Positions 8,804 to 32,480 of a stretch of 64,000 nucleotides of DNA are shown one piece after another. The position numbers and the translations under genes are program-made. Position 1 is the first letter of the stretch, and every line of letters starts with the position of its first letter. The DNA is taken from assembly GCA_013368315.1 (NCBI GenBank), contig JAACJM010000023.1, positions 310,001 through 374,000 on the forward strand, in the 5' to 3' direction. The notes below the pieces were generated by a model. The model searched no databases, had not been told where the DNA came from, and saw only the letters and a list, made by a program, of their open reading frames with translations. Source of the DNA: Tetrapyrgos nigripes. Taxonomy: Eukaryota; Basidiomycota; Agaricomycetes; Agaricales; Campanellaceae.

Positions 8804-8809
8804 GTTCAA

Positions 8810-10693
8810 CATCAGGAAAATGGTCCATGGATAAGTTTAAGTAGTGTTCCGGATATTGTCAATAAGTATGAATAAGTATCGAGTGTTAGCGACCTTATTG
8901 ACCTTAGCCACAATTGGCTAACATTCCGCGGTACCCCCTGCAAATTATCGAGCATTATTGCCAACTTAGTGCATGTTTGCGAGAAATTGTAGCGAGGTTA
9001 TGGATGCTTGATAGCTTTCTATTCATTCATTTTGGCGTACTTATCTTCAGCTCAAAAACCACGAAAGAAAGATCAGAACCATAGATATATTAACATAAAG
9101 CTAAACCACAGACAAGGAACGGTACATAGACTATGGTAACCCAGCGTGACACGACACCCACAATCTGGACTGACATCATGACACACTCTATCCCTCAGGC
9201 TGTAGCCTCTACAACCTCCAGAGAAACCAGACCGATGCCAGATAGGTTTCAGACCAGACAAGCATTCGCGAGGATGAGTCAAGATTGTCCCTGTATCAAT
9301 CCAAAATTAGTAATGTTGTTGGAAAAGAGTGAGTGGAAAGATTACCTTCTGTCACATCCAAACCACAACGAGCGTGCCTGGAGGTAAATAAGTCCTAGTC
9401 TCTCATTAGCACATTGTTTGCAAGCGGTGAAAAGATAATGACTCACCCCAGACGAAGAAACTTGGACACACGAAGCTCTGAAGAAGAGGATCAGGATGGC
9501 AACAATAGGCAATGTGTATGGACTTACCGAGTCGACAGAGGGAGCCACTAGCACACAGTAACACTAAAATGCCAGTCTGTAAGCACAGCACAGAAGTTTG
9601 AGAAAACATACTAAGTTTTTTGCGATGGTCACCAACCGGGCCCATTGAAGGTCTGCATTGAGTCTCAGACTAACAAAACCTGCACCCTGCAGCTAGCAAG
9701 AGAGAAAATTAGAATAGCAACTGTCTCAAGCCCAAGCCCAAGATGACACACCAAGAGACCATCCAGCACAACAGAAAACAGAGTAGTTCCTACACATCTG
9801 TATATCCTCATTATGATAAACCTACCCAGTTGGTTTTAAGTAGCTGAACAGCACACTAGAACTGGGTGAATGGGATGAGAAGGGGAGAAGGAGGAAGGGA
9901 AAGATGGAAGGGAGAAGAAAAGCGAAGCCAACCATCGCAACAAATCACGTCAACTGTACAGTTGATGGAGCGGAGTTCGAAATATTGACGAGCGCCGGTC
10001 AGCCGTAACATCAGTCAGACATTCGGCTACTGATTTTCCGCCGCACCCACAGTCTTTTTCACCAAGTCCAACACTTTCCCGCATGCCCCCCTTCGAAGCT
10101 GCGTACGCCGCCCAACCCATCCGTAGGTTCTTTGCTACAGTGGTGCTGCACTGATTACTGACAGTACACGAAGGTGTGTCGAAGTATTTGTCTTTCTACT
10201 GCTCTCGGACTAGTACTCGGCCTCGGATTGGTAATGTTAACACTATGTAGTAGATTCAGTATGTCTTGAAGAAGACTATGTAGTGCTGTAGTATCAGATA
10301 AATTTTTGACATTTATTTATAAATTACCAACTACTAGTAGTCCTTGAATATAAAACCCTCGCAAGGTTCAAATGGACTCAAAGCACAGCTGAGTTGTAGA
10401 TAATATGTTCACTAATTTATTGACTATTACTGAAGTTTGAATACAACTTGAATACGACACCTGGTGAGATGCTAAGACAGGAAAATGAACTAAGATGATT
10501 GTGCTAAGGTCTCAATAACTTGATGCCAAGTTATTAGACAGAAGATAATTGTACCCAACTTCAGCTATGACTTACTAACTATCACCCCTGCTCAGTAAAA
10601 GTCGATAATTGTCAGTACTTCCATGAATATTATTGCCTTTTCAATAATGACTGATAGTTATGGATACATTAGCCATGGACTGTTTTCCTGATG
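8810..10693 (+). mobile_element. 1,884-bp TIR element, copy A
   Basis: The ends are imperfect inverted repeats of about 21 bp: CATCAGGAAAA, two differing bases, then GTCCATGG. Copy B (30597-32480) has exactly the same length and, in the four long ORF pairs compared, identical sequence, so both copies are recent. No DDE transposase, RT or integrase motif is visible. The minus strand carries several hydrophobic frames bounded by good splice signals (GTAAGT...TTCAG, GTGAGT...TCCAG, GTAATC...ACAG), suggesting a multi-exon membrane-protein-like gene of unknown role. The outer flank is AA and the inner flank TC; neither pairs locally, but they pair with the flanks of copy B. Probably non-autonomous; superfamily unassigned. 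Confidence 0.85.
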
Positions 10694-11707
10694 TCTGCTT
10701 ATACGGTTGTTTGGCCCATTTATGATCAGTCTTACCAAGTATACACTACTATCCGAACTCCCATTACAAGAAGTGAGTCCACTCTGACCTCTTCAGTTCA
10801 CTGAGACAGTTCTGATTTACACGCCTCCAGAGATTATCCGTTGTGGCCAATGTGATACGCCTCATAACAGATGCGGGTATCTCCATTACAATGATCGTTC
10901 TGCTTCAACGAGCAAAGACCGGCTTTAAACCCTCCACGAACTTGTTAAACAGACTGGCGAGTAATTTCCAAACAATTCGCTTCCCCCAAAGTTATAAAGT
11001 TTGTTTCGTCTTACTAGATCCTTCTCTCTGTCAGCACTGGTAAGTCACTCGCTGTTTAAAAGCAGGGCATCACTATGCAAAGGAAGATAGCTGAAGGGTT
11101 TGACCTCTTTCTCTAGGTCTCCCAACCAGTTTAACCTCAATTTTGACGGTCGTTTTGGTGCGTTGCGGATATTTTTTTCCAGCCTTGTCGTCTCAAGTCG
11201 TTCACCTAATGTCGGATCCCATCCAGATTAAAGCAGCCCCAGGAAAATTTATTTATATCTTCAGCTATCTTTTACTGTGCCACTGTATGTCTTCTATTGT
11301 TCCCCCTAATCAATCTCAGCAACGAACTCTCAGACTCTGCTCTGCCACAGTCTACACTATATCTCTCCTCATAACCTTGAATGGACGAGAATTCGTACAG
11401 AGCGCTTCAAAAACCTCCACTGGAGATTTTGGAATGTCTATAGCTCTCGAAGTGAGTTTATTCAATTATTATTGAAGTGTGCTCTATACTCAAGAATTGA
11501 TATACAGATTCAAGACAGGCACAATAATACTACTTCTAGTATCGGGGACGCAGATAGAATTCGAGGTCCTATTGCAGTTCAAATTGAATGCAAGACGCAT
11601 AATTTCAATGTAAGAATCACAACTCGCCTTGCAAGCAATCTACTTACTACTTGTATTCTTAACATGTACAGGAGACAGATGCGAAGGCATCTAATCAATA
11701 TGCGTAG
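10694..11707 (+). pseudogene. DUF6534 membrane protein gene, 3' half (split by element and inversion)
   Basis: This is the C-terminal half of a basidiomycete DUF6534 (7-TM-like) protein, function unknown. Exon pieces align in order with the intact paralogue at 41430-42556. First comes the exon ending CATTACAAG (about 10760). It is followed by RLITDAGISITMIVLLQRAK (10856 onward), APGKFIYIFSYLLLCH (11249-11284), VYTISLLITLNGREF and a polar tail ending TAG at 11705-11707. The intron after LNRL starts GCGAGT instead of GTGAGT. Homology starts right after element A; the 5' half is not on A's other side but at 32481-33546. No internal stop was found in the exons, so the split looks recent. Confidence 0.85.
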
Positions 11708-12135
11708 TGATCTACTATTTATTATGAAGCTCAGGATCATTTAGGCACATATGTACATTACGGTGAGAAGGGGAAGTGTAATATGCATATTGCTTGATAT
11801 ATCCTTTTTGGTTTCTGCTTGTGCCTCCCAGATTGGCGTGTTTAGGGGTCTCCGGTCTTCATGTGATCGTGTGAAAGGCGGACCAACGCGACTACCTCCC
11901 TCGCCGTGACGCCGTCACCTGGCCATGGGGCGTCTTGTGTGGTTCCGGACCGTATCACTCTTTAGACGGACCGCATCTTCTCAAGATTACTCTTGCAGGT
12001 AGTCAGCTGGTGAGTTTTCTTCGTGCTTGCGCCGTGCGGAGATTATATTCTTAGACATTGTTTGTGCCTTGGAAGACTTGAACCCCCCCCCCATAAAACG
12101 GCCAGAGACGAGGGATCAACATCAGTCTAAACGTC

Positions 12136-13858
12136 ATGACTCCTTCTCTCTTTCGCGCTTTTCTCCTCTGGGGTGTCAACATTTTCAATGCTCTTCAAGC
12201 TGCATCTCAAGTCACACCCGGGGACTTTCCGGTCGTCATCAATAGCACTTTCCCGTTGAAGTTGGCTGTCAATCCACTCTGTGGTCAGCTATCATCACAG
12301 AACTTTACGGAGATTAACACCGGGATTATACCTTTGAGTGCCACGAGGTAAACTCTTTGAGCGATAACGGGCTCAGATTTTACGGAGGAACGAGCTTAAC
12401 ATGCTACAGGACTATTGTTGCTTTTGGAGATTCTTGGACGTCGAATGGCGGTGAGTATGTCAATGTGCTTATTGGTGGCCTTTATCTTTACGCTCTCTAC
12501 TTCCTCTCGTGAAAAGCCAATGGCACTGTCCCTGTCCCACCCATCATGTGGCCTCCATCGCCTTCTGCTGGTTCCCGAGTGAATCAAAACCGAAGAGCTA
12601 GCAATGGCTTCATCTGGGTGGAGGATTGGGCGAATATGGCTAGTGCTAAGCTGCTCAATGTGAGTATTAGCGTCACCATTGTGTATTTGCATTCTCTTCT
12701 TATGCCCGTTACTGACGCTGTCAATAAAAATATCGTATCATGGACCTGGCCGCCGTAGTATGCATGGGGAGGAGCAGTGATCGATAACTTTGCCTGGAAC
12801 ACGACATCGCCCAATAATAAGACGGTGAGTTTCGTGAACTTAGCTCCCTAATTCTGATTTTCATTTTGTCTCTGCGTTCGCATTGCCAGAGTGTTCCAAG
12901 AACAGATTTTGTGGCTGAGGCAAAGTGTGTTCATTTAATGACATTGCGTATACATCGATTCACAGGTCTTGTCACAGCCTCTTCTTCCTCCAAGGCAAAT
13001 TCCTGGACAGTCTGGTCCCTAGTCAGACGGTATACACCGTCGCTTTTGGAATTAAGTGAGTTTTATGCTGGATGTCAGACATCATAATGCTAGTCATTCT
13101 GAACCTAATTGGCTGACTTTGGAGCTAGCGATGAAGGTCAATTTGAACTCGGTATGTACGGTGTATGGCTTCACGATGGCATGTTTTATTGGCAAAACGT
13201 GTAGCCGGAGGGGATTGGAACAGGGCCTACAACACATATGTCCGTAGCTGGATTTCTGATCATTTTGGGCCTCATCGGATGCTAAAACAATCGTCTTTGT
13301 TCCAGGTCACGAAGCTGGGCGAGCTTCAGGCATTCGGCGCGAAGAATATTCTTATTCATGGCGTGAATAGATTCGTTCATACGCTTCTTGAGGGGATTCA
13401 TAGCTTACCTGGCTTCCTCAGATGTATAAGTCCCATCCAAACACCGACATCCTTCAGAATCGCGTGTTCGCATATCTCAAGGAGTCGAAGGCAGTGAATG
13501 GGACTGAGTTTGCTTTTGTTAATCTCGAGACGTATGTGAATAATTATGTGACCTATCTGCGTCTCTTATTCCACTTACAATCACCCTTCTCCGCAGATTG
13601 TTCACGGCCATAGCAGATAATCCTGCTGCCTTTGGATATAGAGGCAATCCAACGTGCCTCGTTAGTGCGAATACCATCGTTGGTGGCTGCAATGACCCCG
13701 ATCATAGTGTTTTTTGGATACGTAAGTTGGCTTACCGTCTTGCCGTTGCTTTGGATTGATAGTCTCGGTCATTCCGCACAGCTGGACACCCTTCGCAAAA
13801 TACTCACAGACTCATGAGTCTTTATACGCAAACGGTATTGAAGAACTGTGTCGTGTAA
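12136..13858 (+). CDS. Secreted GDSL/SGNH esterase, CE16-type
   Basis: A serine esterase, probably deacetylating plant cell wall oligosaccharides as in the CE16 family. The first exon gives an N-terminal signal peptide (hydrophobic FRAFLLWGVNIFNALQAA). Twelve exons: 12136-12347, 12410-12450, 12517-12659, 12759-12824, 12900-12924, 12978-13055, 13129-13151, 13205-13239, 13306-13362, 13422-13531, 13597-13721, 13782-13858. All use GT-AG and keep one frame. SGNH blocks are in order: FGDSWTSNG (block I Ser), YAWGGAVID (block II Gly), VAFGIND (block III Asn) and DPDHSVFWIPGHPSQ (block V Asp/His). Length of about 310 residues is normal. It looks functional. It sits on the inverted segment between the split DUF6534 gene and DUF6534-3. 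Confidence 0.92.
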
Positions 13859-14032
13859 TGTTTAAGGATCTTCGGGGATAAATTTTCAAAAAGCCTCTGT
13901 CAACTCGTCAATCTGGACCTATCAGCGCTGAAAATCACGTAAACGCACGTAAATCTCCCTGAAGTTCATTCTCTTTTCAATGGCAAACAGAGATGCACGG
14001 GTGCAATAATTTGTATCGAGAACGACGTCGAT

Positions 14033-15300
14033 TCAAACACTTGCTACACTATCGACCGACAGCTCGGTGAAGACACCTATTGATTGATTGACCGGGGTCT
14101 GCGTTTTGCCCCAGTCCACGTCTACTCTTCCAGTATGATGATGAGAGCCTCTAGCCGCCGTTGTCTCAACTCGTACTACACGCCCCTGATGGTTTTCCGC
14201 GTCCAATCGCAACTGCTCTCTCCCTCCTATGATCCATATCCGAGTATTCAGAACGATGAGAAGGGTGTTGAAATAAACGTTCTGTCGGCTTTTGATGAAG
14301 ATGTAGTAGGCGGTGATCCTGGGGTTTATGAGGAACAAGAGGCATGCTGTGATGGCGAACAGGGCTAGTAAGAGCCAAGGGTGAATATTGTGAGGCCAAA
14401 GGCGAGAAATTAATGAATGCACCGGATAAGAGTCCAGACTCAATGACAATAAGTGAGACTTTACGCATAGGAGAGTGACCTCCCAGTCGAAAGTCTTTCC
14501 TGAAAAGCTGGGTGTTTCTCAGATGCGTATACTTCGAAAACTCAACGAAAATGGAGGGACGTACATAGTAAGTCATTATGCAGGCAATCAAGGAATCGCA
14601 GACCGCACTTGTAACGATCCAAGTGATGAATTCCACTCGCGTTTTGGCCCAGAGAGTAAAATAGTCCGTAAAGTGAAAAGAGCGGACGGTTTGAGGTATA
14701 GAAGCCAGCATTTGCAGTACAGAAAGCTGGGTCCATGAAGCTAGTCGACCCGGAGATGGTGGAATGTTTGCGACTTACAGACAGGAGGAAGACTCTCAGA
14801 CCATTCATCCCCGACAGCGTATAGATTCTCTGTGCATAGAATCCCTGGACACCGCAGCTTACTGTCAAATGAGGACGAGGATATGAGCCAAATGGCGTAA
14901 CAGAAGGAGAGTGAAGTAAATATACCTATCGCAGTAGTTACAGGTAGCAGTGAAGCTCCCAATTGGACGTGAAAGAATGCTTGGGGATGTCCAAAGCTGT
15001 CCCCGAAGAGTATAACCATGTCGTGCATCTGCAACGCGGTCTGGAAGGTGCACATGATAAACAGCGAGTAGACCAATGCTTTTTGGAAGCGTCCGTCTTT
15101 AGGAAACGACATATAGTAGATATCTGGACAAAGAATAGCATCGTGAGTCGTACTTGGCTTGTTAAAGTGACCGAGACACCCACAGACTTGAAGAATCGAA
15201 ATGCCGTAGAGAAAGAATACAAGGACATAGGCAATAACCTTGCGTAGATGGAAGCTTTCGCATAGTTGCCTTTGAGACGACCTCGAGTACTTACTACAGG
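14033..15300 (-). CDS. DUF6534 domain membrane protein (copy 3, intact C-terminus)
   Basis: A multi-pass fungal membrane protein of unknown function. Minus-strand exons join in frame: VIAYVLVFFLYGISILQV, then YYMSFPKDGRFQKALVYSLF to PVTTAI, then VSCGVQGFYAQRIYTLSG, then LSVLQMLASI to SLIACIMTYY (the DUF6534 start, ITWIVTSAVCDS), then KVSLIVIESGLLS. The last exon has FLINPRITAYYIF, NTLLIVLN and a polar tail with a His cluster, ending TGA at 14033. Splice signals support each junction (for example GTACGT...CCCAG and GTAAGT...CCCAG). The first one or two exons and the start codon are not resolved; they should lie between 15250 and 15640. Divergent in sequence from the copies at 40 kb and 33/11 kb. 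Confidence 0.8.
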
Positions 15301-15720
15301 CTGAGCACTTGAAATTATCGTCAGCAGGTCAGTATGGCGATAAGGTGCAATACATACTACTGCGCTATTGCCATGTGAAGACGACCTGGGCAAAAGCCCG
15401 AAAAAACAAAGGTAGCAGATTAACGCACTGGGAGGAAAGTAGGGATGGAAAAGGATCACATCCAGAAGTGAGAGATATAAGTATGCGTTCATCCACCCTG
15501 CAATATCAATGACGGCAGGCAGTGTCAATTTTCAAATGACTGTCAAAGCTACGGCGTTCTCGTAGGCACCCCAGATCCCAACGATCCAACTGGTCCGGTC
15601 CACGCGCCACATCAACCTGAGCGTATGAAAGTAGTTATCATAGTAGTACAATACTGATACAGAGAGCCACAATTACTACACCGAATAAAGATAGTCTAGG
15701 AATGATAGTCACAACAGACA

Positions 15721-16902
15721 TTAGAGCTTGTTAAGATTGGCTGCAGCTGGGTTTTGTCCAGCAGCCTTGGCACGCTTGCGAAGCATCTGAGCTGACTTGT
15801 TTCCACGGAGACCACCACCCCACTGACGCCTGTGTTCATCGTACTTGTCGGTGCTGTGAGAGAGCTGTCAGTGTACCATACACAACGAAACACGATGAAT
15901 GACACACAAATTGGCTTTGGCAGCACTGACAAGTGTAGCCAGTTCCCTCTGGTCCTCGGACTTGACCTCTTCCAAGGCGACGACAGCTGCAGTCTTCTTG
16001 TGGACGACGGCGCCGAGACGAGCCTTGTCCTTCACAATAACGTAGGGTACACCCATCTTGCGACAGAGAGCAGGAAGAAAGACGACTAGTTCGATGGGGT
16101 CGACGTCATGGCCAATGATAACGAGCCAAGCTTTCTTGGCTTCTACGAGGGCGACGATGTGGTTGAGACCGTACTTGACGAAGAGGGGCTTCTTAGTATC
16201 CTAAAGCAGCAGATTCAGTCAGCTTTCCAAATACGGCAAGTAGAAAAGGCACGCACTGTCTTACCCTTACCCTCTGCAGCTGCGACAGCTGTAGCAGTCA
16301 ACCGTTCCTTCTTCTCCGTCTTTGTCTCGGGGCGGTACTTGTTCAGAAGCTTGAAGAGCTACGTAGCCGTATTTTTGTCGAGAGTGTGCGAGAACTGGGC
16401 GATGGAAGGAGGAACCTTGAGGCGCTGATTGAGGATGACCTTTTGGCGTTGGAGGCGGACGTATTCAGGCCATTTGACGAAGCGGGTAAGGTCAGTTTGG
16501 GGTTGGATGTCACCACCTGTAATAGAGACCAATTCAGAGACAAGGCAAAATCATACACGTTGTGGACGCACCGATGCCAAAATTCCGAGGGTTGGCCTCG
16601 AACAAAGGGTTCTTCTTGGTCTTGCTAACCTTGGAGGCGAAAGGAGCCGCAGCGGGCTTTTTGGCGGATCCAGATTTGGCGGCTTTGGGCTGGTCATTGA
16701 GACGAGGTCAGCGTCTGTCATTACAGAATGACATTTGCGCCCCGGAGCTCTAACGCTGCTAAGAAAGCAGCCCAGCAATATGCCATGCTGCTTCATCGCC
16801 AGAAGCTCAGCAACAAAACGGCATTATCCTTTTGTGCAGACGGCACCTATAACTTTTTCAACCTTTTGGTGAGAGCGTCATCCAAACAAAAAAACGTACC
16901 AT
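15721..16902 (-). CDS. RPL8: 60S ribosomal protein eL8 (L7Ae family) with in-frame TAG
   Basis: Large-subunit ribosomal protein of the L7Ae RNA-binding family. Five exons: ATG at 16902-16900, then 16689-16572, 16516-16257, 16200-15908 and 15853-15721. The protein reads [17 protein letters not shown], then [37 protein letters not shown], the L7Ae core [20 protein letters not shown] and [15 protein letters not shown], and ends [15 protein letters not shown]. One codon in exon 3 is TAG (16361-16359) where the family has Gln ([15 protein letters not shown]); everything else is open and well conserved. Two in-frame ATGs lie four and three codons upstream of the chosen start. Either a base error, a real nonsense allele or a young pseudogene; a splice variant around the stop is not apparent. 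Confidence 0.9.
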
Positions 16903-17546
16903 CCATCTCATCATGCCGTATTTGGGGACAAAAAAGAGCTCCCGGGTGCACCAGAAGAATTTCTTACCATTTTTGAAGCGGCGAAGGGCTTGAAGTCGGC
17001 GTTGGGCGTTGGAAAGGAGATTTGAAGAGTCGCGTCCTGGGGAAGCGCATTTTTACGGTTCAAACTCCGGTCAACGCTCCGATTGAAATCGTTACTTCTG
17101 AAACTTGACTCTCAACTACGATGTTGCACTACCGTCTGTCTCGTTCAGTCTAGTTCATACTGCGGACGGAGCATAAAGCTGAACATTCGGAGTCTTTCAC
17201 CGCACTGAGAGCGCTTTTTGAGCTCAGAACCGTGCAGTGTTCCTTTTCGCAGACTCCTTGGTGCTTACCATTGGAGAGTACTCCGAGTGTCTCGGTGCTA
17301 AGACGTTCTTTTTCACAGACTTTTTGATACTCATCATTCAGAGAGCTTCCCTAGTGTGTATATTACGTCACCGAGGTGTAATTCTATCCTTCCAACCTCC
17401 CCCCAACTTCCGGACTACCAAATGTAGGACCGTATGGGGCTCCGATATGATATTTTCCGCCATCAAGCTAAAAAGCTTACATAGCAGAGGATTTGCTCTA
17501 TAAGGGTCTCTCTGTGCTGGTCTTCTCTACTCTCACCTCCGATTCA
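16903..17546. other. Divergent intergenic/promoter region between eL8 and P450-1
   Basis: The two genes are transcribed away from each other, so this 640-bp stretch should contain both promoters. No clear TATA box or recognised site stands out; frames inside it look random. Confidence 0.5.
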
Positions 17547-19695
17547 ATGTCTCTTCAGCTGACGAGGTCGGATATTCTTCTAACAGTTATCCTGCTGTCC
17601 CTCAGCTATGTGCTCCGTCGACGATCGAAAGCCAGTGGCTTCCCTAAACCTCCTGGACCTCCTGGATATCCACTTATCGGAAACTTGCTAGATATTCCCA
17701 ATGCCAAGCAGATGTCCGATGAGATTTGGGCCAAGTGGGGTCAGAAATGGGGTGAGTCTCCTTGAGTTTTATTATTGAAGGACCACTAATGATCGGACGT
17801 GCGTTTTGCAGGCGAGATAGTGTCCGTATCCGTACTTGGAACGACTGTCGTGGTCATCAACTCGTTCAAACAGTCCATAGAAATGCTGGAGAAGCGAGGG
17901 GCAGCTTTCTCCAATAGGCCATTTCTACCTATGCCAATGGAGGTGTTGGAGATGAGAGTGCGTAGTATTTGCCCTTTTCAAGTTGACTTTACTGAGGACC
18001 TGGTACAGGATTCCATGGGTCTATTGCGCTATGGGAGAGCTCTCACCTCTAGACGGGCTTTGTTTCATCAGGAGCTGGGTACAGAATCAGCTGTTCGTGC
18101 TTTTCATTCAGAACTTGAACGCTTGGGGAAGAAGTTTCTCCAGCGGCTTCTTATTTCTCCCGAGAAAGCACTAGACAATTGTCATCAGTGCGTACCACCG
18201 TCTATACGTAGCTTTTACTCTTATAAACTTTTTTCCAGTTACTCAGGTTCAATCATCCTTTCGATTGCGTATGGATACGAGGTACAAGACTCATCATCAA
18301 ATCAATATGATCCAATGGTGAAGATTGTCACGACAGCCATGGATAACTTCAATCACGCAACCGTTCCAGGCGCATTCCTCGTCAACGATATACCTTTTCT
18401 CCTCAAGTTACCAGAGTGGCTACCTGGAATGGGATGGAAGAAGCTCGGAAGAATTTGGGCTAAAGAATACTGGGACATGATTGATGTGCCTTATGCGTTT
18501 GTAAAGCGGAAGATGGTGTGTGCATTTCCAAAATAGAACTCGCATAACTTTTAATAACGATGCTTTATCGCAGATGGAGGGGACCGCAAGGGACTCATTT
18601 ACGTCAAAATGGCTGTCCAAAAATTTATCGGAGCTGAAGGAGTTTGATTTGAAGCTGACAGCGAGCGCTATGTTTGGAGGTGAGTTGTGGCTTGATTGAA
18701 ATTTCCCTCCTATGGACTGATAATATGATATCTAGCGGGCGTCGAGACGGTGAGAAATGCTCAATCTTAGCACGTGGAGGCTCACTTCGTGTGTTCTCGT
18801 CTAGACCGCCGCAACGATCTACGCATTCTTGATCTTGATGGCCATGCACCCCGAGATCCAAAAGAAGGCTCAAGTAGAGATTCAAGACGTGGTCGGCCTG
18901 GGCAGGATGCCTACTTTTGAGGATATGAAAGATATGACATACCTGCACGCAATTTTCAAGGAAGTCATTCGATACCACCCTGCTGTCCCCAATTGTGAGT
19001 CATTGTTCGCTTCCCCTTGAAATGGCCGGAACAGTCGATGTTAATCTGAGAGATACTTTCTATATTTAGGCCTCCCACATTCCAATCCGCATGATAAAGT
19101 ACACAATGATATGTTCATACCGAAGGGAGCTATTATCTTCGTGAACCTATGGTGAGTGAAAGGGCCTACAGATTGCGAGTTGGAGTCTGAATTGCCACGT
19201 AGGAATATGGCGCGTAACCCGGAGGTCTATTCCAATCCAATGGATTTCAATCCTTCCCGATTCCTTGGCGAATCTCCCGAGCAAGATCCAAGGGAGGTTA
19301 TCTTCGGTTTTGGGCGGAGGTATGTCAATGCAGCTTCTTCCCACTTCAGCGATCTCCAGTTCTTATCCATGATGTCTGTCAGAATCTGTCCTGGTACGCA
19401 CTGATGAACTTGTGGTGAGCCTGAAATTTTACGAGTGTTATCATACAGGTCGCCGTCTCGTAGAATCCGTTCTTTGCATAACGTTTGCAATGGTCCTAGC
19501 CTCGTTCAACATTTCCTCCGATGCAGAAGCACCTGTGAAATTTAGAAGGAATCCAGGGATCATCAGGTCAGTTTCTGCTCCACTTGTACACATTTATGAT
19601 GATAACATGACCGATTTCAAACAATTTGCGCTAGCCACCTCGACGAAATGAAACTGAGGATCGTTCCTAGGTTTGATCCCAGCCACATCAGATGA
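17547..19695 (+). CDS. Cytochrome P450-1 (basidiomycete microsomal monooxygenase)
   Basis: A heme-thiolate monooxygenase anchored in the ER. Twelve exons in one frame: 17547-17751, 17812-17957, 18009-18187, 18239-18515, 18574-18679, 18736-18749, 18805-18994, 19070-19151, 19203-19319, 19383-19393, 19449-19566, 19635-19695. N-terminal membrane helix ILLTVILLSLSYVL, then the proline hinge PKPPGPPGYPLIGN. I-helix AGVETTAATI, ExxR as KEVIR, meander FNPSRFLG. The heme loop FGFGRR-ICPG is split so that an 11-bp microexon carries ICP and the Cys. A 14-bp microexon encodes GVET. About 510 residues, complete. Close paralogue of P450-2 at 37-39 kb; substrate unknown. Confidence 0.93.
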
Positions 19696-21030: not shown

Positions 21031-21239
21031 GGTTTCCGCCTGTCTCAAGTGAAAATTGGGCCCACTGCAGAAAGCCTCCGAGCCAACTTGAGAAGTTGGA
21101 CGTTAGCTGGTGTATAGCTTCGAAACTTGGAATACATCAATGGCACGAGCTCCTGGACTTCCGCTTTAGTGAAAGGTGACAGGCGGTGGCATTGGAAGCA
21201 ATTGAAGTGTTGCGTGTCTGTTAACAATGGTCCAGCCTT

Positions 21240-22735
21240 GACAAAAGCAAAAGCAAGTCACAGGACCGTTAGACTAGTGGCACCAAATTCTTCCCCGACT
21301 CCGACCGAAGGGAACCGGAAGGAGGAGGGTGGCTGAGGGGAGTCCAGTTTCGAGTGGAAACTTCTACGTAATCGCCGGCGATATCGGTTACCGGAGTACG
21401 AGGATGAATTGTCTTTCAGACCATTGCCTCCTCCTCCTTTCCAAGTTAATGCAGAGTGGGAGATATGTAAGCCACTCGGAAACTCCTCGAGGATATCAGA
21501 AATACAATTCTCTACGACAAGACTATGCACTGTACCTCAAAGTGCATACTACGCTGAAGCGATAATAAAAATGATTTGAGACACTGTTTAGCCAATACCA
21601 AGCCAATACGTACATCACACGTAGAATGTCAAGATGTATCGTCAGTCTGGATACTCGAGACTAGATGGTATGCCACATCAGTTGAGCCAAAGTGGACCAG
21701 AGCGTTTATCAAGGTCTGAACCACCCTCTTCAAAGTTAAGGCATCCAATGCACTGTCCAGATGATGTGCAACAGTACGAGCATTTGGTGAGGGAAGACCA
21801 TCTCCAGGTTCCTTGTACTCCGCTAAAGCTTATTGAATAAAGGGGATGATCAAAGTAATAAGTGCGTCGATTTCGCTGCTACCGATCTGAATTACTGTCG
21901 TACCGAATCAGCGAAAGATCTGTGGCCCATCTGATTATGTGTTCGAGGTAGGTGGAGATGTGTTTTGAAAGGAAGTGACTTTTCGTAGGCAATTGAACAG
22001 CACATCATTTGTATCAGAAGGAATGCGAAGGAAGAGCGGATAACTTTGCACGCGGCATAACCTTGACAGCGAAGTGAAGAAAGTTGGCGCGATACTAAAA
22101 GGAGGGAAGTAAAAATACAAAAAAGGAAGAGGAGAGGAAAAAATCCCAAAAAGGAAGGAGGGGAAAGAGGGGGAGAAAGAGAGATTCTTGAGAGATTCTG
22201 ATTCATATTTGTGTTGTACATACCCGTACTTACGCACTTGTAATGAGCTTAATACCAGTTTGCAAAGGTTGCGAGAAAAACTCTAACGCTTTCGGAAGTA
22301 CCGGCAAATCCCGATCCGGCGCTACGGCTGCGATACTAAAATTCTCAAAGCGGAAGGTAAGGAGTACAGGAGTACATATGCACTCCCCCGCCGTTATTTG
22401 ACTCAGTACTGTATGTAGTGTATGTAGATACTCCATCAGTGTTTTTTATTGCCTCCAAACGCAGCGCAGCACCACACAAGTAATGCTGCCGCGAAAATTC
22501 CAGGAAAGGCAGGTGGGATACTAATCGGACCGGTTTGGTTCCCGAAGTCCGATTAGTCAGCTCTGACATTATGATGTGCCACATGCGCGCGCGCGTTCGA
22601 CACATTATACCATCGGCTCTCAGCCACATCGCAGTGAGTGCCACTAATGTCCATTGGGTAGATAGCTTTTTACTCATATGTGGACTACACAATGATATCT
22701 ACTGTGGGTTTTGCTACAACTAAATTACTTAATGC
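21240..22735. other. No recognisable gene
   Basis: Short frames only. 22090-22190 is a purine-rich (A/G) stretch on the plus strand and 22585-22600 is an alternating GC run. It may contain the 5' region of the exonuclease gene. Confidence 0.4.
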
Positions 22736-23090
22736 TCAAAACAATCGAAAAAAAAGAGGAAAAGGGAACATATATGTATATTCTGTACATGAATATGTTT
22801 CAATCAGTTCTATTGTAGCATGGCACCTTGGGCTTCTTGGGATTCCTCCCCCTGCAACTAACTTTACCACAGTCTCTACAAGGGCTTTTACAAAATTGTG
22901 CACCTCTTCTTCCTGGACAACTCTTTCCACTATTACATTTAGGACACTTCTTTGGATTTCTCTTGTTGGAATTTTGTAAATACTCAAAGGTCAAAGTACT
23001 AAAACTAGATTGAACCTGAGCTGATTGAGGGAAGGCTGGCTGGTTTGGAACAGAAACTGGCTGGAAGTGAATATTATAATTGCTAAACAT
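22736..23090 (-). CDS. Cys-rich ORF of unknown function, possibly transposon-derived
   Basis: A 96-residue minus-strand frame ends in a Cys/Lys-rich block: KCPKCNSGKSCPGRRG, FCKSPCRDCGKVSCRGRN, KKPKVPCYN. The regular Cys spacing (CxxC, CxxxCxxC, then two single Cys) suggests metal binding. I have a weak impression of similar blocks in basidiomycete repeat proteins but cannot name a family. The N-terminal half is Ser/Gln/Pro-rich. Start codon not certain. Confidence 0.4.
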
Positions 23091-23314
23091 GGATTTCCTC
23101 AGTTTGATTGGTAGGACTAATATAATTATATATGAAAGGAATGTTCAAGTACCTTGAGCTGTTTGATTCTGGAGTGTGATTACTTGACTGACTTGACATG
23201 ACTATTCTAACAGGGATTGTTATACTTACACCCATAGCTGATTTATTTAGACTAGCTTACCATGGGCTTTGAATCTTACTTGACTTTTTCGTGTAACGCG
23301 TAGCCTTTCAGGAA

Positions 23315-23353
23315 TGCGGAAAGTGTCGTTTGCAGGTGCAGACACTTTCCGCA
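23315..23353. repeat. Inverted repeat, 13-bp arms
   Basis: TGCGGAAAGTGTC (23315-23327) and its exact complement GACACTTTCCGCA (23341-23353) flank a 13-nt loop. Its role is unknown; it lies about 280 bp past the stop of the membrane protein gene. Confidence 0.7.
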
Positions 23354-23585
23354 CGCTCGCAAAGCCAAATTACTTTGATGGCCATGTGGCACAGCTTAAT
23401 ATAGCCATATGACGTGTATTTAAACAGCTGACTACACTACGGAATACAATTGCCGGTGATCGGAGTTTGAATTAGTATCCGTTTAGTATCGTTCCCTGCT
23501 ATACGTATCGCACCAGAAAGGCATTCATATTCGGAATCTGCATGGATACAAAAGAATACAAAGCACTTGCACGACTTCTAGCTGT

Positions 23586-23624
23586 CCACGATATGCAGCC
23601 ACAGGCTGTGGCTGCATATCGTGG
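23586..23624. repeat. Perfect hairpin, 19-bp arms, 1-nt centre
   Basis: CCACGATATGCAGCCACAG (23586-23604), a single G, then the exact reverse complement to 23624. It sits 8 bp past the stop codon of the minus-strand gene ending at 23632, so it would fall in that gene's 3' UTR. Confidence 0.85.
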
Positions 23625-23631
23625 AACTAAC

Positions 23632-24714
23632 TCATATATCGCTGCTGCTTTTGGAGCCTATCAAGCTTCGTATTCTACTTCTAGCGTTCTGCCATAATTC
23701 AGCAACTTTCGGGTCAAAGGAACCGATCCTGGAGGAGCGGTAGCTGTACTCTGAGGCTGACAACACTGAAGCGGAGTCCAGATTTTCTTCGTGATCGGTC
23801 GGTGAAGCAGAGAGAGGAAAGGGAGCCTGTCTGTGTTCAACATCGTCGACGACGAAGTCACTTTGAATTCTTGGACCATGGCCCTGGTAATAGAATCCTC
23901 CTCCTCTCCTATAACCGGTAGTAAACTCCTCCTCCATCCTCGGAGCGGCGGGTGTTACAGTTCCCAAAGTAGATCCAAGGTTTTCAGCATCTCGCCGCTG
24001 CATTCTCTGTTTGATCATTCTTGTTCTGATACGGATGAGAATAATGAGAAGCAGCAAGTCGAGGATGAGCAGAAGGCAGCCAAAAGTGAGAGCGAGGATC
24101 AGGGATACATCAGAATTTGGTTGAGTTGATGGGATATCAGAGCTCGGTAAATCCGATGACGTCTGAAATAATGACCTGCGAAGCCGAGAGCATGTTTAAC
24201 GAAATAGACAACATATTTTGCGTTACAGAGGCATAGATAAAGCAACACGCACCGCGATTCCAAAGAAATATGATCAGATATACTGCCCAGATACATGTCC
24301 TTCGCTATAACATTGACCGTAGTCCTTCCCGGCGGGAGCAACCCTAACACACCTCCCCCATGCCGTGAATGTTTACAGATACTCGCAAGACAGGCAGTTT
24401 CGTCGAAGAAATGCGAAGGCCAGGGCATATGTCCACCTCTGTAGGCATTGAGAAAGGCGTCGACGCGACAACTAGGACTCTTTTACTCACCTAGATCCCG
24501 AAACTTGCTGTCTCAAAGTCGCTGTACTACAGTAGAGATAGGTCCAGCGGGAGTTTAAGGGGAAGAAGACGATTCTGACACTCGAGAAGTAGAAGTAAGA
24601 AAACTCCAAGTCGTTCAAGCCACGCGCTTCCACCAAAACTCCAAGACAACCAGATATAGCTGGGACTGTGCATAGGCGTTGCCTCAGGTTTCCCCGCAGA
24701 CGACATGAGAACAT
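23632..24714 (-). CDS. Single-pass membrane protein, unknown function
   Basis: Three minus-strand exons join in frame: about 24714-24491, 24438-24253 and 24175-23632, with introns GTGAGT...TACAG and GTGCGT...CGCAG. The outer part has a Ser/Thr/Pro stretch (SLFQTSSDLPSSDIPSTQ). It is followed by one membrane helix (VSLILALTFGCLLLILDLLL) and a basic stop-transfer (RIRTRMIKQRMQRR). The cytoplasmic tail is about 130 residues, polar, rich in Ser and Glu, ending SKSSSDI. This layout (ectodomain, one helix, long tail) is common in basidiomycetes without assigned function. The start codon (24714 used here) and signal peptide are uncertain; an alternative ATG is at 24763. Confidence 0.6.
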
Positions 24715-24774
24715 TCTGCCGGAGAGTGGCTTCCTCCTGAGATGCGTAACTGGCAGGTTCCATTCCAGTGGAAA

Positions 24775-24815
24775 GAAGTTACGAGGCCCTGTAAGGCCGA
24801 GTTAGCTTAGGTCGT
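24775..24815 (+). repeat. Solo 'Y' end of the CTGGGG element family
   Basis: GTTACGAGGCCCTGTAAGGC followed by CGAGTTAGCTTAGGTCG matches the Y ends at 45246 and (reverse complement) 57733. No partner X end is near. Confidence 0.55.
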
Positions 24816-24929
24816 AGTCGACCCCCTCAGCGCTCCGAAATGTCCGAGCACTGCCGCTCATGCTTACAAAGCATCAACAACACGTGACGTCGATGGTTTC
24901 TTGCACGTCCGCCCGGCTTCCTCGGTCAC

Positions 24930-26070
24930 TGACCGTTCTCTTGCTTCTCGTTTATCCTTTCCACACCTCTCTTTTGACTCGCCTCCGTTCTTTGATTATT
25001 CTATACAACATCGTTCTATTCCTCGTCCTCTCTTCAATGTCCGAAATCGCCATCCTCCTTTCACAACGCCCCATCGCCATCCGTCAATACCGCAGCGCCC
25101 TTCCTTGAGACCCTCTCCCAGCCTCTCCCAAACACTCGTCGACAACCCCATCTCATTCACCACCCTCTTATACAGCATTATAATTTACTTCATGGTCGGT
25201 CTCCAAACCACTGCTGCCCAATTCTAGCTGTGGGGTCCGATCCAGCGCAGGCGTTGGTAGATGTTGCGTTGCTGACGTTGATCTTGTTTGCGTCACCAAG
25301 TCTGACATGATTGGTGGATTGAGGTGGGTAACTCATCTCAACGTGCGTCTTTCTCTCTTTTCTCTCTCTCTGGTGCTTACCCTCTTCACAGCCGAGTCGC
25401 TGGGGTTCCGAGATCTATATCCTCAGTGGAACTTGCTCTAATTTCGTCCCATCTGGTCCTGGATACTCGGATACTAATTCCAACATTTCTCTGGCAAACC
25501 AGGCTTGTGCGGCGTTCAGGAAGGTGTCAGTATAGTTAACGTTTTAGTAATGCTTGGAGGGTGAGTGTCACGTCGTTCATTCTTGCCATACACTAGCACC
25601 TGTATATACAGAACCTTGGTATCATCTTCGCCTACGGAGTCGTCTTCCTACTCTTCCTACTCTTCCTACTCCTTTCACCGAAGTCAACGACGAGGAAGCA
25701 GGTGCCAATCGCAGACTCCTAGACGACGTCTCGGTATATGTCGCTCCCGGAAAATTCACAGCTCTCATGGATGGAAGTGAAGCCGGCAAAACTACTCTAC
25801 TCAATGCGCTCGCTCAACGTGTCTCAGGTGGAGTAGTTTCGGGGGATGGTTTCGTTGATAGCGAGGCGTTGTCTGTGGATTTCCAAGCCCAGACGGGCTA
25901 TTATCAGCAGTTGGATGTTCATAATTTGCATACGTACTGGTGAGTACTATCTAGTCTGCGTCTCAATCTGGAACTGATGGGTTCTTCGTAGTCCGTGAAG
26001 CTCTATCCTTCTCAGCCAAACTGCGCCAACCGGAACATGTCCTCGCAGAGGAGAAAGAGGTGTAGTCTCC
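24930..26070 (+). pseudogene. PDR-type ABC transporter pseudogene fragment
   Basis: Pieces of a full-size pleiotropic-drug-resistance ABC transporter occur in family order but in different frames. They are SSMSEIAILLSQRPIAIRQYR and TLVDNPISFTTLLYSIIIYF (first membrane domain), an extracellular-loop scrap FVPSGPGYSDTNSNISLANQ near 25440-25500, then second nucleotide-binding domain LDDVSVYVAPGKFTALM. In the Walker A the usual GESGAGKTT reads DGSEAGKTT. NBD pieces FQAQTGYYQQLD and REALSFSAKLRQP follow, before a stop at 26064. The N-terminal NBD and everything after this point are missing, and frames are broken, so it cannot make a pump. Confidence 0.85.
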
Positions 26071-26175
26071 CCCTCCTAATCGTCAGTGACTTTATGCTCG
26101 TTCATATCTGACATTTTGTATGTTTCCCCGTTAACAATCATTACAAGAGGAAATCAACAAATCTACACGTCTTTA

Positions 26176-26653
26176 TTTATTGCATGGTCGACTTGAACCC
26201 CTCCCCATGGAAGAGTCTAGGTTCTTTGTCATGTACTTCTGCCACTACCTCCAAGTCATTGACCCTCGTCATCGAAAGGCACTGACAAGACTCCTACTCA
26301 GCGACCATCTCCTTGCGCTTGAGCTCCATAGGAGGGGCTCCAGATATCAGCCACCAATCCCATGTGAAATGTGTCTCTGCCGTCTATGTGAACAAGAGGT
26401 CAAATCCCCCGAACATGCTCTCCTGCTTTGTCAATTTTCCCAAGAGGTTATTGACATCCGTCAATCAACAATCACTCGATTATCCCCCTTTCATCCTGAT
26501 CTACCCACTCACAACAGCTTTAATGCTCACAACACATTACACTTCCTACACAAAATCATCTTTCACTATGATAGCATTGATATTGTAGCAAAGTTTGTAC
26601 ACGACATTCTTGAGATCTTCTACTCTAAACCAATCTATATACCCCCTCAATAA
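26176..26653 (+). pseudogene. Non-LTR retrotransposon (LINE) 3' end
   Basis: The frame reads RHRKALTRLLLSDHLLALEL, then CRLCEQEVKSPEHALLLC, a zinc-knuckle-like C..C...H....C. This resembles the C-terminal tail of basidiomycete LINE/RT proteins that follows the reverse transcriptase. RT itself is absent, which fits the usual 5' truncation of LINE copies. Confidence 0.65.
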
Positions 26654-26961
26654 CACTGCTACAGCTGCACCTATTATTATCTCCACGTCTCATTCACCCA
26701 CTTTTCTCTCTCAATTCTCCACTCTCATCCTTGTCCAGCACTCCCACCCCTTAAATCTCTCACTTGGTAGCGCACCATCAAACACGATTCGACATTTTTG
26801 AGTTGGCTATGTAAGTTCCTGACCTGAATACCTGCCATGGGACTACTGTCACAAAGTTGACGTGATCGATTTCATTGGTAAGGACTTAGAGTAGATGTAG
26901 GCTGTGGCAGGCTATAACACGTCTACACCTGGCCTGTTTGTAGAGGACCATGCCGTGTAAT

Positions 26962-26962
<1 letters not shown>

Positions 26963-26992
<30 letters not shown>
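26963..26992. repeat. (CTAT)n microsatellite
   Basis: About seven and a half copies of the tetranucleotide CTAT in uninterrupted tandem array. Confidence 0.95.
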
Positions 26993-26993
<1 letters not shown>

Positions 26994-27193
26994 CTACTGT
27001 GCAGCATGTACGACAGTGCATTGATGACTTGTACTGTTCGTAGGATACCAAAATAATTGTTTGACCTCTCTGGACTTGTCCCAGCCCACCCATCCCCCAG
27101 ACATGTCACGTGAAGCAAACATGTGCTGGAAAAGCCATAGTTTGAGCGCGTCGTGTTGTGGCATAGACTAAGATAGAGAACAATAAAATATTT

Positions 27194-30001
27194 TTGTTCG
27201 CGCTGACTCTTCTCCATGAAATGACCCATCCAACACCTCAACCATCTGAGTTACCTCAGAGCTCATCTCGTACCGGAAAACAGTGCTCACAAAGCAAATG
27301 CAAGACAATTCTTTCACCTGGAGACACATTCTCGCAATGTTCTAATTGGCATAAAGCCGATGCTGAGCGCAAACAAGCAAAGGGAGCTGCTAAACGTGTG
27401 AGAGAGGAGGAGGAACACCCTCAGTGCAGTGATGGACCACCTAATCCAGGGGATAGACTTGAGTCACAGGATAGAGAGAGTGAGACAGACACTGAGGTGA
27501 GCATTACTGGGCACATTTATTGATTTTTGACTCTAATACACAAACAGTCTCACCACACGCCATACATACAATTCACTGATGCTGAAGCCATGTTCAAGAG
27601 CCTCCGAACAACCTTCAACAAGCAGCAGAAAGTCGAATTCGCGGGCGAGTACACCATACATAATGATCCCCTTCTCTCTGACCGAGAACGTGTCCACAGA
27701 ACGATTCGGGAGGTCTGGCAGGTTATCATTTCACATACGTTCCTCAGCATAGATTCCAATATGCCTTGTAATAGTGTTCATCATCATCCAAAAATTTCGA
27801 CTGGTCACAAAACAGTCTTGCACTGTTGCCAAGACACTGCCTGGAAACAGAAGTCTAAGAAGAAAGAAGGAGTCAATACAATTCATTGAGACACCCCAGG
27901 AATGCGCCGCTACCCATGCCAGAGTTGACTCATTGTTACAAGCAAGAATCTTAACATGTCCAACACTATTATAAAGCTTGTTAGTGTCTGAATCAAGCAC
28001 ATGGAACAGCATGTAATATACTACGATGTTCCCATGTCTTATAATGCTGCAAAAATCATATGAGACAATCTACTTTCCTCCACTCCCAATTCCCTTGTCC
28101 ACCAGCTCCTCCAACTCTATCCACATCTTACTGCAGCTCAAATACACTCTGCTTGGACAGTTATGAGTGAAGACATCTGGAAGAAGGATCAGCTCACCTC
28201 TGCAAAAATGGTGCTAGAAGAGCACCATGACATCATTGATACCTTTCTTGCTACTGATGAAGAAGGAACTGTACAACTATGCTGGGGACTGAAGCCTATA
28301 GCTGAGATCATCAGAAAGAAGTTGATGGTGGTAGAGATATCAATGGATGTGACATGTGAGTAAAAAAAACTTGCCTTTCAAGCATTCAGAGTTTCTGATC
28401 AAATGACCATTGATATACAGTTGAAACAAATGCGAAGCACCTTGAGCTATATTGCGTTATGACAGAGGTAGATGGTGTCTGCCTATTATCCACTGTCAAT
28501 GCCACTGAGCCTGGGAAACAGAAACAGTCACTTGAGATATGGGCATGGTAAGTGAAATAAAAAGTATCAAGTTAATCCTACCATCATTCATGTTGATAAA
28601 GACCTTGGTGAAATTGGTATGGCTCAGAGTGTCTGGCCAGAAGCAAAGATCCAGATCTGTTGGTGGCATCAGAGGAAAGCTGTCCAGGAGCATATCACAA
28701 AGGCAAAACTATCCACAACACCTTATGATTCAGTAGCCACCCATAAGGAGTTCTCGTTCATTGATGTTGACTTTATCCCACCTGGTAGATCTGACCCTGA
28801 TGAACAAGAAGGTGGACAGGAGGGTTGTGGCAAGGATACTATTATTGATGATCCTATCAATGACCCTGCTTCACCAGTCAAGAAAGATTCAAACCAAATT
28901 ACAATTCACCTAACTGCATCCCAATGCACACATCCCTGAACTTGATCAGCTAACTGCCAAGCAAATCCCAAATCCGACAAGGCGCATGAACCAGACTCCA
29001 GCGAAACTGATGCTGCAAGTGTGAAACAGATCTTCTGCCCATCTGAATGACGTGAGGAAGTGATTTCCAAAATGGATGCACATCAACATGCACATCCATT
29101 GATACCAGGTTACACTGCACCTACACCTGAAGGCATCTATCACTGGGCAGTCAAGAAGATATATCAATACTGTGTGCACTATGACCTCTGTGAACTATGG
29201 GCCTACCTTTGGGAGAACTGGTATTGTCCAAAGTGATGGAGACTCTGGGCGTGTTCCGTTGTACTGGAGATACCTAGACTTCATACAACTATGATTAATG
29301 AAAGTCATTGGTGGCATATAAAACATGACTTCTTACATCATTTCCACAAACCTCATGTGGATCTACTAAGTTAATGCCTTTGTACCAACAGAAACTAGAC
29401 AATCTTACCTTGGATGTTGGAAGGTTCCAAAGATTTCATGGAGGAAAGCATTCAAAAGGGAGTGGAGGTGGTGCAAGCAGACTCCCATAACCCTACCCAT
29501 TGACCTGAAATATCGCCTGAACATCAAACATTGGACATGTACATGCCCAAGTCAAGGACCCAGCTGCTTTCTCCTTTGTAAACACCTTATCCAATCTGTC
29601 AAAGCTGTACCTAGTACTTTCTTTCTGGAAGTGACTTGTATCCAGACAATGCCATTTTGGGTCCATAAGAGTTTGGTTCCAAAGGATGGACTACAACAGG
29701 GCACAAATGAGGAGAATATTGATGGGAATGATGATGGTATAGATGCACCCGCAGAGCAGAATGAGCCTGAAGATGGCAATGAGAGTGAAGATGAAGAAGA
29801 GTACTGTTTGGATGCTGAGTTGGTAGGTCAAAGTATGGCAACATACAATGAAATAATGATGAACCTTTCTAGCACACTCAGGGACTTTGCAGATGCACTT
29901 GACTATCAAAAACAGTTCCGAGATGAGTGTTTTCTCAATGCAGTGGAAAGGCATGGTGTAGGCTTCCTCCAGTTGATGGAGAGTTGCTTAGAGAAGGAGT
30001 G
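27194..30001 (+). pseudogene. MULE (Mutator-like) transposase, degenerate
   Basis: Landmarks of an Agaricomycete MULE appear in order. An N-terminal polar region with FAGEYTIHNDPLLSDRERV (27640-27700) is followed by CCQDTAWKQKSKKK (27830), AWTVMSEDIWKKDQL and LLSTVNATEPGKQKQSLEIW (about 28490-28545). Next come EIGMAQSVWPEAKIQICWWH (28610-28670, the DDE-domain CWWH block) and YDLCELWAYLWENWY (29190). A SWIM zinc finger, CTCPSQGPSCFLLCKH, is near 29540-29585. An acidic C-terminus ends CLEKE-TGA at 29999-30001. Several frame changes and stops occur between 28940 and 29550, so this copy is probably dead. TIRs were not delimited. Confidence 0.8.
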
Positions 30002-30596
30002 AAGGCAGAACTCTAATAGAGGGGCATCTACCTGTACATGGGGACCTGGTGCATCCTCCTCGATGTTCTATAGAACTCGCCTGAGGAATGGTGAGGGACA
30101 GACTTGAAAATTTCTCAAAACATGTGTTTTGTGTGTGTTTTACATAATCAATCCTTGTATCTACTAGCATTTTTGAACTGAAACACCTTGTTTCTCACTG
30201 TCTATTGTATGCAGCTTGCATATCTTACATAGCTACCCTACTATCTTGTCTCTTGAACTTGAGCTGATGTTGCCTTCACATTGCAATATGGGTGGGATAC
30301 AGACCCTGGATTCCAATATGGCAGGGGTCTGTCCAGGCCCCATATCTGAGAGTCCAGTATTTAAATATGGGTCACTGGGGTGTTATATAATCTACATACT
30401 ATATTGGGCAAGTGTGCATTATGCCTGCTCATTACACAAAACTGTTGGTTCATTAGCATACAGAATCTTTGAAGTAAAATTGCCTGTTTGAAGGGTATTT
30501 TGTAGTGAAAATGATTTCTTATTGCGGTTTGAGTCAAAAATAAATCATGTGATCACATAGTCATGCCAAACTCACATGACCTTAACCCACCACCTT
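30002..30596. other. MULE 3' flank with a 31-bp block shared with 8503-8533
   Basis: No gene. At about 30309-30339 the block GATTCCAATATGGCAGGGGT plus 11 further bases is identical, and in the same orientation, to one at 8503-8533. The flanking CAGACCC also matches. The stretch ends at the left end of element B. Confidence 0.6.
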
Positions 30597-32480
30597 CATC
30601 AGGAAAACAGTCCATGGCTAATGTATCCATAACTATCAGTCATTATTGAAAAGGCAATAATATTCATGGAAGTACTGACAATTATCGACTTTTACTGAGC
30701 AGGGGTGATAGTTAGTAAGTCATAGCTGAAGTTGGGTACAATTATCTTCTGTCTAATAACTTGGCATCAAGTTATTGAGACCTTAGCACAATCATCTTAG
30801 TTCATTTTCCTGTCTTAGCATCTCACCAGGTGTCGTATTCAAGTTGTATTCAAACTTCAGTAATAGTCAATAAATTAGTGAACATATTATCTACAACTCA
30901 GCTGTGCTTTGAGTCCATTTGAACCTTGCGAGGGTTTTATATTCAAGGACTACTAGTAGTTGGTAATTTATAAATAAATGTCAAAAATTTATCTGATACT
31001 ACAGCACTACATAGTCTTCTTCAAGACATACTGAATCTACTACATAGTGTTAACATTACCAATCCGAGGCCGAGTACTAGTCCGAGAGCAGTAGAAAGAC
31101 AAATACTTCGACACACCTTCGTGTACTGTCAGTAATCAGTGCAGCACCACTGTAGCAAAGAACCTACGGATGGGTTGGGCGGCGTACGCAGCTTCGAAGG
31201 GGGGCATGCGGGAAAGTGTTGGACTTGGTGAAAAAGACTGTGGGTGCGGCGGAAAATCAGTAGCCGAATGTCTGACTGATGTTACGGCTGACCGGCGCTC
31301 GTCAATATTTCGAACTCCGCTCCATCAACTGTACAGTTGACGTGATTTGTTGCGATGGTTGGCTTCGCTTTTCTTCTCCCTTCCATCTTTCCCTTCCTCC
31401 TTCTCCCCTTCTCATCCCATTCACCCAGTTCTAGTGTGCTGTTCAGCTACTTAAAACCAACTGGGTAGGTTTATCATAATGAGGATATACAGATGTGTAG
31501 GAACTACTCTGTTTTCTGTTGTGCTGGATGGTCTCTTGGTGTGTCATCTTGGGCTTGGGCTTGAGACAGTTGCTATTCTAATTTTCTCTCTTGCTAGCTG
31601 CAGGGTGCAGGTTTTGTTAGTCTGAGACTCAATGCAGACCTTCAATGGGCCCGGTTGGTGACCATCGCAAAAAACTTAGTATGTTTTCTCAAACTTCTGT
31701 GCTGTGCTTACAGACTGGCATTTTAGTGTTACTGTGTGCTAGTGGCTCCCTCTGTCGACTCGGTAAGTCCATACACATTGCCTATTGTTGCCATCCTGAT
31801 CCTCTTCTTCAGAGCTTCGTGTGTCCAAGTTTCTTCGTCTGGGGTGAGTCATTATCTTTTCACCGCTTGCAAACAATGTGCTAATGAGAGACTAGGACTT
31901 ATTTACCTCCAGGCACGCTCGTTGTGGTTTGGATGTGACAGAAGGTAATCTTTCCACTCACTCTTTTCCAACAACATTACTAATTTTGGATTGATACAGG
32001 GACAATCTTGACTCATCCTCGCGAATGCTTGTCTGGTCTGAAACCTATCTGGCATCGGTCTGGTTTCTCTGGAGGTTGTAGAGGCTACAGCCTGAGGGAT
32101 AGAGTGTGTCATGATGTCAGTCCAGATTGTGGGTGTCGTGTCACGCTGGGTTACCATAGTCTATGTACCGTTCCTTGTCTGTGGTTTAGCTTTATGTTAA
32201 TATATCTATGGTTCTGATCTTTCTTTCGTGGTTTTTGAGCTGAAGATAAGTACGCCAAAATGAATGAATAGAAAGCTATCAAGCATCCATAACCTCGCTA
32301 CAATTTCTCGCAAACATGCACTAAGTTGGCAATAATGCTCGATAATTTGCAGGGGGTACCGCGGAATGTTAGCCAATTGTGGCTAAGGTCAATAAGGTCG
32401 CTAACACTCGATACTTATTCATACTTATTGACAATATCCGGAACACTACTTAAACTTATCCATGGACCATTTTCCTGATG
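30597..32480 (-). mobile_element. 1,884-bp TIR element, copy B (inverted relative to A)
   Basis: Same length as copy A, and all four long ORF pairs compared are identical in sequence. The left end is CATCAGGAAAACAGTCCATG; the right end is the complement of CATCAGGAAAATGGTCCATG. On the plus strand, frames around 31640-32220 are bounded by splice-like signals and encode hydrophobic stretches. Examples are TGILVLLCASGSLC, TYLASVWFLWRL and VTIVYVPFLVCGLALC. No nuclease or transposase motif is recognised. The inner flank is TT (AA on the element's own strand) and the outer flank GA (TC). Confidence 0.85.

Follow-up and report, generated by a model that had tools for sequence, protein, structure and literature searches.

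A 64,000-nucleotide stretch of the genome of the mushroom Tetrapyrgos nigripes (bases 310001-374000 of contig C23, JAACJM010000023.1, in an assembly of 98.5 Mb and 587 contigs; hereafter the window) contains a 19,903-bp segment, positions 10694-30596, that appears to have been inverted between two identical, oppositely oriented copies of a 1884-bp transposable element of the PlavakaB type. One breakpoint lies within a DUF6534 gene and the other within an interspersed repeat, and the reading that a single reversal of the segment, to which no strand of its own is assigned, would explain both breakpoint sites is well supported. The identity and orientations of the copies, the exchange of the dinucleotides that flank them, the open reading frame of the rejoined gene model and the continuity of the rejoined repeat can all be read directly from the DNA. 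We consider it likely that the inversion arose by homologous recombination between the two elements.

Copy A occupies positions 8810-10693 on the plus strand and copy B positions 30597-32480 on the minus strand. The two, each 1884 nt long and in opposite orientation, align with 0 mismatches (identity at 1884/1884 bases), which limits their divergence to at most 0.16% at 95%; copy A begins CATCAGGAAAATGGTCCATGG. Read in the orientation of the element, copy A is preceded by AA and followed by TC, while copy B is preceded by TC and followed by AA, so that the flanks match only crosswise. The AA at positions 8808-8809 (plus strand) pairs with AA at 30595-30596 (minus strand; TT on the plus strand) as the two halves of one target-site duplication, and the TC at 10694-10695 (plus strand) pairs with TC at 32481-32482 (minus strand; GA on the plus strand) as the two halves of the duplication at the gene site. 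Given the dinucleotide frequencies of the window, both cross-matches would be expected by chance with a probability of about 0.4%. The duplications still adjoin the element ends at both copies and no deletion or duplication was seen at the breakpoints. A preliminary description of this DNA, made from its sequence, had proposed equal-length inverted copies at these positions, unmatched flanks at present and restoration of TC/TC and AA/AA on reversal, and each of these features was confirmed to the base.

To place these flanks in the context of the family we took, from 67 end matches listed, 13 elements besides A and B that have both ends. Two of these, on contigs C142 and C559, share their 10-base flanks with the elements on C113 and C340, respectively, and were set aside as repeat entries for those loci, leaving 11 distinct elements; partial copies, such as those on C259, C415, C436, C25 and C63, were left out of the count. 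Matched 2-bp duplications flank 10 of the 11 (GC/GC in the case of the element on C27, for example), the exception being a copy on C181, and hence the unmatched flanks of A and B are unusual for the family. The C113 and C142 elements, which lie near a contig end and a contig start, respectively, differ by gaps only, with 0 mismatches, and the C340 and C559 elements differ in length (1410 and 1483); each of these two loci seems to be present twice in the assembly.

The termini of A and B, CATCAGG..CCTGATG, fit those of PlavakaB elements, for which a published account gives termini of CATCA..TGATG and duplications of 2 or 3 bp as distinguishing marks (PMC12730594), the latter being found at 10 of the 11 distinct elements surveyed. 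A pattern search for similar termini identified longer elements on C237 (6,954 bp), C10 (6,828 bp) and C238 (6,797 bp), all of them flanked by matched 2-bp duplications. The Plavaka transposase domain PF18759 is encoded by frames of the C237 (E 3e-94) and C10 (E 3.5e-89) elements, the two long elements that were scanned, and the final 178 bases of the C237 element resemble the end of copy A at 77% identity. The longest open frame in A and B encodes 87 amino acids and we therefore designate them non-autonomous; PF18759 was not encountered in the one frame of 85 amino acids that was scanned against Pfam, which yielded no family. A and B are presumed to be non-autonomous relatives moved by a transposase of the type carried by the long elements. 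They share with the PlavakaB elements of fungi the termini and the 2-bp duplications, but are only 1.9 kb in length and lack any frame of over 87 amino acids (PMC12730594). No RNA family matched the window at gathering scores, and folding of the first 41 nt of copy A revealed no structure (z 0.96).

The segment divides a DUF6534 gene into two parts on opposite strands. The 5' part (32481-33546, minus strand) starts with the ATG at 33546 and comprises exons 1-12, the last of which ends at 32515, together with 34 nt from the start of intron 12, whereas the 3' part (10694-11707, plus strand) comprises the remainder of intron 12, exons 13-20 (10730-11707) and the stop codon. Exons 13-20 are now 21.8 kb away from exons 1-12. 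Both parts were built by hand, with exons picked from exon-by-exon matches to a paralogue and without RNA. Rejoined by reversal of the segment, they form a model of 20 exons and 318 codons (957 nt including the stop) that is free of internal stops and frameshifts, with 19 introns of 50-77 nt each, of which 18 have GT-AG boundaries and one, after exon 14, has GC-AG (window 10957-10962; the paralogue has GT there). The two parts meet midway through intron 12, each contributing 34 nt, to give an intron of 68 nt in which both splice sites are present. The rejoined protein contains the DUF6534 domain (PF20152) with a score of 58.9 bits against a cut-off of 28.2. The preliminary description had placed the ends of the two gene halves at 32481 and 10694 on opposite strands, rejoined in order and strand by reversal; these positions and the rejoining hold, with the refinement that in our model the break lies within intron 12 and not in coding sequence. 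Separated in this way, the gene would presumably have lost its function.

Searches with proteins are consistent with a single gene. An incomplete set of exons gave no match in a protein search, and the full 318-residue model matched 10 proteins. One of these, from Dendrothele bispora (P0002, 317 residues), spans 100% of the rejoined protein at 53% identity. When P0002 was compared with the DNA by tblastn, residues 24-93 aligned with 33303-33047 on the minus strand and residues 140-272 with 10725-11448 on the plus strand, a placement that is independent of our choice of exons. The same search also matched the full paralogue, at 40303-42218. This gene (40035-42556, plus strand; annotated as P0001, D9758_009764), whose protein was the best match to that of the split gene, likewise has 20 exons, the first 18 having the same lengths as in the split gene, and the two proteins agree at 200 of 317 aligned residues; the values of dN (0.25) and dS (1.6), estimated by NG86, are as expected for genes under constraint. 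Intron 12 of the paralogue is, at 144 nt, longer than the rejoined intron, which may reflect an earlier loss inside intron 12 of the split gene. As DNA, the joined gene flanks have no match in the genome other than themselves and 71 nt of the paralogue. Taking together the open model, the paralogue, the full-length D. bispora protein and this absence of other genomic matches, the two parts look like one gene and not two truncated paralogues. Two further observations concern related genes in the window. The deposited P0001 departs from our model of the paralogue around exons 16-17 (window 41813-42121) and agrees with it elsewhere, possibly as a result of an annotation slip. Another DUF6534-like gene is located within the inverted segment (14033-15531, minus strand), where frame 14166-14711 gives a weak partial-domain match of 18.6 bits, below the DUF6534 cut-off.

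At the second breakpoint the segment interrupts an interspersed repeat of roughly 700 bp, the first half of which lies at 8448-8809 (plus strand) and the second half at 30258-30596 (minus strand). A search for relatives returned at least 63 matches, with 40 of 350 candidates scored, and ten non-self loci (L024-L033) were taken up for a test of the join; since L028 and L031 represent one place, nine distinct places entered the test. These relatives are 73-91% identical and some are partial. In eight of the nine, a match runs across the join obtained by reversal of the segment and extends 25 nt or more to either side, whereas the present-day joins at A and at B, which served as controls, are each crossed in none (0/9). 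This comparison with paralogous empty sites establishes where the second breakpoint lies without recourse to the gene.

How might such an arrangement have come about? We favour a course in which one element would have inserted into intron 12 of the DUF6534 gene, duplicating TC, and another would have inserted about 20 kb away into the repeat, duplicating AA. A crossover between both elements would then have reversed the segment, swapped the duplications and carried exons 13-20 to the other strand. The second copy may have originated from the first by recent local transposition; we infer both the crossover and its timing, after that transposition. Once a single local transposition has placed identical 1.9-kb copies in inverted orientation 20 kb from each other, ordinary recombination can readily act on them, and it is on this ground, a matter of judgement, that we hold recombination to be the likelier route.

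Several points weigh against this course. Since the copies are identical there is no variable site to read, and a chimeric pattern, which would prove a crossover, is not visible. According to a study of Galileo elements in Drosophila, recombination between copies that differ yields chimeras, whereas insertion of a hybrid element yields identical copies with the same exchanged duplications (PMC2775673); the identity of A and B is thus also predicted by the latter process. The closest other copies carry 33 and 45 mismatches relative to A and B (97.5% and 97.2% identity), so either the second copy would have to have arisen recently and locally from the first or the pair would have to have been homogenised. 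Neither an 8-kb part of the segment nor the joined flanks of the gene, when used as queries against the assembly, revealed a second allele; the 8-kb query matched itself and otherwise gave only partial matches of lower identity. Lastly, the exceptional element on C181 (L007, G000:C181:107026-109197), which contains an internal insertion, has unmatched flanks (AT/TA on the contig strand) without a known partner; it could be another rearranged copy or one with a mutated duplication.

Hybrid-element insertion is a possible alternative, to which we assign a rather low probability. Here the transposase would link the 5' end of an element on one sister chromatid with the 3' end of its counterpart on the other chromatid, and a single insertion of this hybrid 20 kb away would at once invert the segment, create the second copy and exchange the duplications. 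Where both parental copies occupy the same site, the process is expected, according to the Galileo study, to exchange the duplications and to leave the copies identical, with nothing deleted or duplicated (PMC2775673), and A and B are indeed identical even though their closest relatives are not. A paper on alternative transposition describes related one-step inversions made by Ac/Ds and cites the Fusarium element impala for rearrangements of this type (PMC8225341). Against this, identical inverted copies also suit ordinary recombination well. To our knowledge hybrid insertion by Plavaka has not been reported, our literature searches on Plavaka having been general ones. The inversion proposed in the preliminary description is supported, in that both sites rejoin on evidence beyond its own, namely the open gene model, the paralogue, the D. 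bispora protein and the empty-site comparison, while its mechanism, homologous recombination, is likely but unproven because hybrid-element insertion predicts the same outcome.

The remaining explanations have much less to recommend them. Perfect inverted repeats are a usual cause of false inversions; it is nevertheless quite improbable that the present order arose during assembly, by a flip at the identical copies, and that the true chromosome carries two ordinary insertions in the uninverted order. A Plavaka-related repeat is present inside five separate contigs, and its copies match in 10 of 10 pairs over 5,006-6,025 bases at 99.57-99.80% (a comparison confined to one repeat family, in which the matches reach the ends of the fetched stretches), the loci examined contain no N in 255,165 bases including overlaps, and the element present on both C113 and C142 differs by gaps only, as would be expected of a long-read consensus. 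Together these point to the use of long reads, and we regard mis-assembly as unlikely. It is extremely improbable that the gene parts represent two distinct truncated paralogues whose flanks match by chance. DUF6534 genes are numerous in this genome, with at least 50 matches at E ≤0.001 (150 of 177 candidates scored), but the two parts do not overlap, abut within one intron with the splice phase kept and form a complete gene together; the joined flanks are, apart from the short paralogous match, unique in the genome, and reversal independently restores the repeat at the second site. The preliminary description had named separate truncated paralogues as an outcome that would refute the inversion; when examined, the parts proved complementary. 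Composite (macro-) transposition of the whole segment was considered separately and rejected, since the outer dinucleotides differ (plus strand: AA on one side, GA on the other) and the segment holds one gene half but not the other.

Inversion by a pair of transposons is a known kind of event, of which this locus is an unusually clear form. The model case of ectopic recombination between inverted copies is provided by the Galileo inversions of Drosophila (PMC2775673). Inversion 2z3 of Drosophila buzzatii shares with the segment in T. nigripes the opposite copies at both breakpoints, the exchanged duplications and the lack of deletion or duplication. Its copies are chimeric and the crossover is proven, whereas here they are identical and the crossover is deduced, and the host kingdom, the transposon superfamily and the size of the segment, 20 kb, also distinguish the two (PMC2775673). 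In maize, alternative transposition by Ac/Ds likewise leaves transposon ends exactly at the junctions together with duplications of the size made by the transposase; there, however, the ends that become joined belong to two neighbouring elements in direct orientation, and the events were recovered in screens, whereas the T. nigripes copies have opposite orientations and their event can be traced from sequence alone (PMC8225341). A protoclone of the mushroom Marasmius oreades again shows a rearrangement involving a transposon pair, in this case two hAT copies, one of which was inverted and the intervening sequence lost; the Plavaka event reported there is a deletion and not an inversion, and other protoclone deletions are attributed to recombination between repeat copies (PMC9674265). 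No report of an inversion made by Plavaka was found in the literature searched.

The neighbourhood of the split gene also includes P450 genes. P450-1 (17805-19401, plus strand) lies inside the inverted segment, while the exons of P450-3 (37062-38679, minus strand) and a 3' remnant of P450-2 (34197-34517, minus strand) lie outside it. Among eight P450 frames compared with Pfam, one (37062-37778, in P450-3) exceeded the P450 cut-off and six gave no family; the P450-2 frame at 34374-34547 scored 19 against a cut-off of 22.8 bits, and this remnant is matched by P450-3 frames. The single P450-1 frame that was scanned yielded no Pfam family and hence the identity of P450-1 depends on its match to P450-3. 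On this basis the earlier suggestion that P450-1, P450-3 and P450-2 share the minus strand in the uninverted order holds, but their agreement in strand is weak backing for the inversion. The inverted segment additionally encodes a 3'-5' exonuclease domain (PF01612, 37.2 bits) at 20337-20915 (minus strand) and a fragment of an ABC transporter at 25554-25943 (plus strand), which scores 24.1, just below the cut-off of 25. Between the P450-2 remnant and P450-3 there is a near-perfect palindrome (35491-36152) with 326-nt arms that are 99% complementary and 10 nt apart; positions 35490-35595 resemble the complement of 6047-6152 at 72%. Elsewhere in the window, an inverted repeat of 289 nt and 89% identity is found at 58257-58545 and 59141-59429, with 595 nt between its arms.

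As the two copies are identical, this locus offers a convenient test of whether the segment continues to flip, and of crossover versus one-step aberrant transposition. It is conceivable, but doubtful, that recombination keeps inverting the 20 kb in the growing mycelium as a reversible switch, such that the nuclei of one individual differ. In that event the DUF6534 gene would be whole in one orientation, with the element removed within an enlarged intron, and cut in the other, in which the P450 gene would face the other way, and a mushroom would possess an on/off element that works by inversion between two transposons. Irrespective of any switching, an uninterrupted state can be reconstructed at both breakpoints of the proposed inversion between the Plavaka copies, an open gene at one and a continuous repeat at the other. 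If this reading is correct, small non-autonomous Plavaka elements can rearrange the gene neighbourhood of a mushroom and break a gene from within an intron.

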